64,000 nucleotides of DNA from Methanococcus voltae PS (lineage in GTDB: Archaea; AGJL01; Methanococci; Methanococcales; Methanococcaceae): the NCBI RefSeq assembly GCF_024807035.1, contig NZ_JANUCQ010000001.1, forward strand, positions 124,001 through 188,000. Reading direction: 5' to 3'. The notes below the pieces were generated by a model, which was not told the DNA's origin, made no database searches, and saw nothing but the letters and a program-made list of their open reading frames with translations. Positions 13,768-56,607 of the stretch are shown here, piece after piece; positions within the stretch are counted from its first letter, which is position 1, and the number at the start of each line of letters is the position of its first letter. The position numbers were made by a program, and so were the translations under genes.

Positions 13768-13886
13768 TGAGTGCCTTAATTAGGTAAGATAACCAAAAAG
13801 GTTCTCACATTAACGGGAGTAATCCCGTAGGGAATGTAGCGAATGCTGAACCCGGAAACAAAATATTGACTACAGTGAGTGATAAA
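13768..13886 (+). ncRNA. Structured leader RNA upstream of rpl15e (candidate cis-regulatory element)
   Basis: A G+C-rich island in otherwise A+T-rich intergenic DNA folds by eye into a compact three-way junction: P1 GGTTC 13800-13804 with GAACC 13848-13852; P2 ACATT 13807-13811 with AATGT 13833-13837; P3 ACGGG 13813-13817 with CCCGT 13824-13828 (loop AGTAAT); P4 AGC 13838-13840 with GCT 13845-13847 (loop GAAT). An alternative hairpin AACC 13791-13794 with GGTT 13800-13803 would exclude P1. CTCAC at 13804-13808 is complementary to GTGAG at 13875-13879 next to the ribosome site. I do not recognise a known riboswitch or snoRNA class; a free sRNA is the alternative. Confidence 0.6.
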
Positions 13887-55953: not shown

Positions 55954-56277
55954 TTTAATAGGTTAATAAGTTAATAATATTAAAAAATATTATTAATTTT
56001 ATTATTCTAAGTTTTATATCTAAGACTTAACACTGTCAAAATCTTTTATTTTACTTAAATTTTTAAATTTTTAAATTTTTACTTGCTTATTTTTATTTTT
56101 ATTTTTAAATTTTTTAAATCATACATTATTGTAATTTCACCATAACCATACTATGATTTTAATCCAATTTCTTTTTTTATCAATTAGATATTAAGATATC
56201 TAATAACCTTATAAATATAGTTATGAGTTAAACCTATATATTCAATAATTATATAGAATTACACAGGAGGTGTTAAG
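55954..56277. promoter_or_regulatory. Terminator of fbp and promoter of the HesB-like selenoprotein
   Basis: A 324-bp gap. T-rich DNA (about 55995-56115) ends fbp. The inverted repeat TTAGATAT 56184-56191 with ATATCTAA 56196-56203 lies directly upstream of a box A, CTTATAAATA, at 56208-56217; initiation near 56240 would leave a leader of about 38 nt ending in a perfect AGGAGGTG ribosome site. The palindrome is placed like an operator. Confidence 0.5.
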
Positions 56278-56577
56278 ATGATACCAGTTACCATATCTGA
56301 TGATGCTAGAGAATTCATCATGGAAAAACTACCTCAAGCAACTTCAAAGGACTTCATTGTAGTATTTGAAGGATTTGGTTGAGGAGGGCCTAAATTTTCA
56401 GTAGATTTAGTAGATAAAATAATGGATACAGATGAATTAATACACGAAGAACCAGAGTTTAAGGTTTACATCGACAAAATGGCAAAACAAGTGCTCGAAA
56501 GTGTAAACATTGTATTAAAAAAGTCAGTATTCAGTGGAAAATACCTTGCTATACAAGGAGCAGGTGGATGTTGTTAA
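56278..56577 (+). CDS. HesB/IscA-like selenoprotein (in-frame TGA = selenocysteine)
   Basis: A 300-bp gene encoding 99 residues if the in-frame TGA at 56380-56382 (codon 35) is read as selenocysteine: MIPVTISDDAREFIMEKL, then EGFG-U-GGPKFSVDLVD, ending GAGGCC. The Sec is in the position of the first metal/cluster-binding Cys of IscA/HesB, and C98-C99 correspond roughly to the C-terminal pair. Similarity runs through both sides of the TGA, the frame stays open, a strong AGGAGGTG site precedes the ATG, and a SECIS hairpin follows. HesB-like selenoproteins are known in Methanococcales. A standard gene caller misses it. Confidence 0.93.
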
Positions 56578-56607
56578 GATTTAAGAACCAAAATGGATTA
56601 AATCTTA
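56575..56607 (+). promoter_or_regulatory. Archaeal SECIS element overlapping the stop codon
   Basis: The hairpin has a lower stem of ten pairs, TAAGATTTAA (56575-56584) with TTAAATCTTA (56598-56607), the archaeal hallmark internal loop GAA (56585-56587) opposite A (56597), a short CC/GG upper stem and an AAAAT loop. In archaea the SECIS lies in the 3' untranslated region, as here, but its first three bases are the TAA stop itself. It directs insertion of selenocysteine at codon 35. Confidence 0.88.

Follow-up and report, generated by a model that had tools for sequence, protein, structure and literature searches.

The window, that is, the whole stretch of 64,000 nucleotides of Methanococcus voltae PS DNA that was analysed, carries on its forward strand a gene for a HesB/IscA-like selenoprotein (hesB) that ends in a hairpin, such that the stop codon of the gene is also the beginning of the hairpin. 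The features of the locus are the following:

56266..56272, + strand: putative Shine-Dalgarno-like GGAGGTG immediately 5' of the ATG, located by eye, with approximate bounds
56278..56577, + strand: gene of the HesB/IscA-like selenoprotein, with 99 codons and a TAA; single-copy orthologue in 33/36 Methanococcales genomes; scored against PF01521 and TIGR01911 (values below)
56380..56382, + strand: UGA codon 35, read as selenocysteine (Sec); TGA in 33/33 orthologues; in the alignment, at the position of the first cluster Cys in IscA-family chains
56569..56574, + strand: two Cys at the C-terminus, the final one shared by 32/33 orthologues
56575..56577, + strand: TAA stop, which doubles as bases 1-3 of the SECIS basal stem
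56575..56584, + strand: SECIS basal stem, 5' strand
56585..56587, + strand: GAA of the kink-turn-like motif
56588..56596, + strand: SECIS apical stem CCA/UGG with AAA loop
56597..56597, + strand: opposing A of the kink-turn-like motif
56598..56607, + strand: SECIS basal stem, 3' strand

Read from the ATG at 56278, the frame runs through 34 codons to the UGA at 56380-56382, continues for 64 more codons and closes at the TAA at 56575-56577. The sense frame (56278-56574) comprises 99 codons, with the UGA as codon 35 and no second interruption, exactly as the original prediction had it. The UGA-interrupted gene is confirmed, and ordinary annotation is expected to truncate it.

With the UGA read as Sec, the product scored 31.7 bits against PF01521 (Fe-S_biosyn / HesB-IscA superfamily), over the cut-off of 26.3, and 61.1 bits against TIGR01911 (HesB_rel_seleno), below the curated cut-off of 66.35. 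By their one-to-one orthologues, 23 of 36 Methanococcales genomes pass the TIGR01911 cut-off; the shortfall is common to the whole genus of the window species and is therefore attributed to divergence. The protein contains the motif UGGPKF, which, together with single-copy orthology, fits the UxGP pattern listed for the HesB-like selenoprotein family in a passage of PMC13188914. The orthologue profile places Sec35 opposite the first cluster Cys in HI1723, AQ_1857 and E. coli IscA, the IscA-family chains compared at this position being 2apn, 1nwb, 1s98 and 1r94. An AlphaFold2 model (mean pLDDT 89.9) had IscA and SufA as its best solved-structure matches (Foldseek, probability 1.00), and comparison of the predicted fold with 1x0g (IscA) gave a TM of about 0.69. 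Profile match, alignment and fold search all uphold the proposal of a HesB/IscA-like selenoprotein with Sec at the position of the first IscA cluster Cys.

The predicted fold and the first cluster-cysteine position, held here by Sec, are shared with the IscA/SufA/ErpA carriers (PF01521; E. coli IscA 1r94, SufA 2d2a, IscA 1x0g), but the C-terminal CGC of those proteins is missing and one conserved terminal Cys is present; compared with the aligned IscA chains, the GP after Sec is found in the hesB family only. Of the three cluster cysteines of an A-type carrier (Cys plus a C-terminal CxC), the first position is Sec and the CxC of IscA is absent. The protein ends in CC, a terminus that it shares with other Methanococcus, whereas in other genera a single Cys is the very last residue. 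In one orthologue (L029, G010) TAC (Tyr) stands in place of TGC, the last Cys codon, a change that also breaks one SECIS stem pair and is either a mutation or an assembly error. In the predicted IscA fold, Sec replaces the first cluster cysteine and is accompanied by a very C-terminal Cys, which is double here. As the likeliest role we infer that of a Sec/Cys site handling Fe-S, selenium or sulphur.

The HesB-like selenoprotein family is already known, and the window gene adds a member to it. Mutagenesis and 75Se labelling revealed a HesB-like selenoprotein in M. maripaludis, according to passages of PMC11097638, in which the disruption mutant still fixes nitrogen and the function of the protein is given as unknown; the class had correctly been described beforehand as one known from Methanococcales. 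The M. maripaludis counterpart, MMJJ_08070 (TIGR01911), is likewise an orthologous small IscA-fold protein with UxGP, a single UGA and a 3' SECIS.

The genome of the window species has both a tRNA-Sec (RF01852, 59.3 bits, over the cut-off) and a selenophosphate synthetase (SelD, 216.5 bits, with one TGA), the pair by which a Sec-decoding genome is recognised, and it also encodes VhuD with two TGA codons and HdrA with one. The selD hairpin (L135, G000:C2:100500-106000) reads AUCC UAA CC UUUU GG A GGAU, with UAA opposite A and not GAA/A, and the SECIS of vhuD (L136, G000:C1:108500-114000) carries AAA/A. In the adjacent hdrA upstream, no recognisable SECIS of its own was seen before vhuD; hdrA may share the SECIS of vhuD or use another form.

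Our sample comprised 36 Methanococcales genomes, 33 of which have one hesB orthologue each, and in all 33 exactly one in-frame TGA occupies the same column (codon 34-35). A Cys version of this position occurs in none of them, and scans of the contigs for Cys in the UxGPKF motif, with narrow patterns that give weak evidence, returned no relative. Between the window species and its nearest sister (G020), the part of the gene after the UGA gave a dN of 0.058 and a dS of 0.627 (dN/dS about 0.09); dN being low relative to dS, this part is taken to be translated and selected. A UGA is a stop by default, and a real stop at codon 35 would make the locus a pseudogene or the source of a 34-residue peptide. 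We regard this as exceedingly improbable in view of the TGA kept in every orthologue, the purifying selection downstream of it, the nearly invariant terminal Cys, the covarying SECIS described below and the 75Se labelling of an orthologue in the cited passages of PMC11097638.

The SECIS occupies 33 nt (56575-56607), with the sequence UAAGAUUUAA GAA CCA AAA UGG A UUAAAUCUUA. Its basal stem consists of ten contiguous pairs (56575-56584 with 56598-56607), the first three 5' bases coming from the stop, and its apex can be drawn with a 3-nt loop closed by three pairs, two from the CC and one A-U, or, equivalently, as two C-G pairs with a 5-nt loop. The features of an archaeal SECIS, namely GAA opposite A, a C-G apical clamp, a basal stem and a loop of 3-8 nt, were all found. 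The three stem bases supplied by the TAA had been recognised at the outset; the accompanying extent, the 32 bases after the coding end, needs correction to 33 nt including the stop. The fold of the 66-nt region had a z-score of -4.41, and 0 of 200 shuffles were as stable. When both strands of the window were scanned for hairpins with NAA/A, at least five contiguous and at least 8 of 10 basal pairs, the hesB hairpin was the sole one; first-order Markov versions of the window contained a mean of 0.45 such hairpins, and ten contiguous pairs in 0 of 20 trials. An Rfam search at the hesB locus returned no match. We rejected a further helix that folding had predicted outside the SECIS, as it uses letters of the 3' flank that are missing from the sister G020, and also a second match of the SECIS covariance model in the genome (G000:C2:155854, 21 bits), an A/T-rich chance match with no adjacent UGA gene.

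Like the methanogenic SECIS (Peiter and Rother 2022; Peiter et al. 2025), the hairpin combines a basal stem, a GAA/A kink-turn-like motif, a C-G apical clamp and a short A/U loop. It differs from them in the weak A-U pairs beside the motif, in a third apical pair that is A-U, and in a stem that starts at the first base of the stop and not downstream in the 3'-UTR. According to passages of PMC11881835, neither A of the GAA can be dispensed with in vivo, whereas its first base is flexible, and a three-pair basal stem has partial, reduced SECIS activity. The need of a SECIS for Sec insertion in vivo is documented there and in passages of PMC9622424 for other M. maripaludis SECIS elements; the latter source also describes a SECIS that was moved directly 3' of the coding region in M. 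maripaludis and works with no apparent loss.

A SECIS adjoins the stop in 30 of the 33 orthologues. In their alignment, 91% of the cells are paired (67% in shuffles), double-sided changes occur in 11 of 13 pairs, and shifting the partner by one column lowers the pairing to 45-58%. Covariation, a check that had been suggested for the basal stem, is strong over these pairs (score 0.70 vs 0.23 in shuffles), and the archaeal pattern originally proposed, with a ten-pair lower stem, GAA opposite A and a CC/GG upper stem, is the one that covaries in the orthologues. These 30 natural variants, with covariation in every basal pair, give the SECIS comparative support across the order. In G018 the motif is an AAA variant, the same as the AAA/A variant that is active in vivo in methanogenic SECIS according to a passage of PMC11881835.

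The GAA/A and the C-G apex are kept where the stem covaries, as in the SECIS defined in vivo (PMC11881835, in part), and the same motif lies 3' of other UGA genes. On these grounds we consider it very unlikely that the hairpin serves solely in transcription termination or mRNA stability and the UGA is decoded through another signal, a reading favoured by the T-rich sequence 3' of the hairpin in many orthologues and by the three genomes that have the UGA and no hairpin. Cys or a real stop at codon 35 in relatives devoid of the hairpin had been named as the finding that would speak against a selenoprotein; no Cys was seen, TGA being present in 33/33 and the hairpin in 30/33, and only the absence of the hairpin was encountered, in those three genomes.

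The three orthologues, G007 (L134), G008 (L133) and G014 (L132), keep the UGA and the frame with no recognisable SECIS. None was found from 400 nt 5' of the UGA to 700 nt 3' of the stop under relaxed rules, in a scan of limited reach, as the SelD hairpin of the window genome has UAA/A and HdrA shows no recognisable SECIS; the covariance model gave no convincing match near hesB. The tRNA-Sec and the VhuD SECIS are intact in all three, and the differences between G008 and G014 after the UGA fall at third positions (7/7). G007 keeps only UAACUGGAAAGUUAGC of the hairpin, the core of which looks to have been deleted. Given these three SECIS-less orthologues, the rule of one gene, one SECIS is imperfect in the HesB family, and they constitute natural cases in which to seek a non-standard signal.

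The overlap of stop and SECIS stem had been singled out as the unusual part of the locus. This was not supported, as the stop lies wholly within the contiguous stem in 16 of the 33 orthologues and the nearest sister lacks the overlap. The 16 comprise every SECIS-bearing gene of family f2 (11, often with the last Cys codon paired as well), the two of genus g4, the only one of g3, the window genome and its near-identical relative G019. The stop is outside the stem in the sister G020 (+4), in the M. maripaludis-like genomes G015-G017 (+3), where the stem starts right after the stop whereas the UAA of the window is inside it, and in the remaining g1 and g2 genes; in G018 and G027 single stop bases only are inside. 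The overlap is conserved, then, in part of the order.

Relative to the stop, the first base of the stem lies between -6 and +17 across orthologues. In the overlapping genes, the distance from the stop's first base to the start of the GAA is 5, 7, 8 or 10 nt; since the stop does not sit at the same place in the stem in every clade, the overlap was gained or lost more than once, or it slides. In vhuU of two genomes (L115 in G007, L130 in G010), the basal stem of the SECIS either directly adjoins the stop or includes its last base. In the vhuD, hdrA and selD genes sampled, the stem begins some 14-118 nt beyond the stop, a spacing taken from a few regions. Because close spacing of SECIS and stop is typical of hesB and vhuU, we read the overlap as its by-product, a compact layout and not a special switch, and we are highly confident that the window holds an ordinary Methanococcales HesB-like (TIGR01911-type) selenoprotein gene with its SECIS placed compactly at the stop.

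In such a gene, a ribosome at UGA 35 would stand about 195 nt 5' of the SECIS, such that the hairpin would be intact during decoding and, via a putative archaeal SECIS-binding factor and SelB, would direct Sec-tRNA-Sec to the A site. Translation would then reach the UAA at the base of the SECIS stem, where the finishing ribosome would open the hairpin briefly, and the hairpin would refold after termination; we infer both melting and refolding, and refolding between ribosomes is the simplest reading. Across the order, the SECIS stays within a few bases of the stop and shifts into and out of that codon. The footprint of a ribosome covers 12-15 nt downstream. In 29 of the 30 SECIS-bearing genes, 5-16 nt separate the GAA from the stop's first base; therefore, with or without overlap, a terminating ribosome should cover the motif. 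The earlier suggestion of a stem that has to melt when a ribosome arrives at the stop is valid, in this sense, for almost every orthologue and is not distinctive of the overlap.

A stronger proposal would let termination control recoding, each finishing ribosome shutting the SECIS for its followers, and would have the layout kept for that reason, which we think unlikely. Acting as a feedback switch, terminating ribosomes would open the SECIS under busy translation or slow termination, upstream ribosomes would stop at the UGA, and output would be capped, so that hesB would limit its own Sec output. The proximity of GAA and stop in 29/30 orthologues would suit such a switch, as would the more distant stems of vhuD, hdrA and selD (few examined) and the energetics of the hairpin, in which 2.6 of 7.8 kcal/mol depend on the TAA pairs and removal of six bases leaves no basal stem. 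The switch is nevertheless improbable: the overlap is absent in the nearest sister (+4) and in the M. maripaludis-like genomes (+3), the UGA lies 185-214 nt from the GAA among orthologues, which leaves space for several ribosomes, the SECIS of vhuU abuts the stop too, and stems of three basal pairs are partly functional in the passages of PMC11881835.

The literature passages searched hold no mention of a stop codon within an archaeal SECIS, and an earlier description may exist elsewhere. A stop can belong to a SECIS, and in family f2 it always does where a SECIS was found; predictors restricted to the sequence 3' of the stop would clip such elements. Elsewhere in the window, an eL15-Euryarchaeota ribosomal protein leader (RF03144) was matched at 13814-13857, barely above the gathering score.
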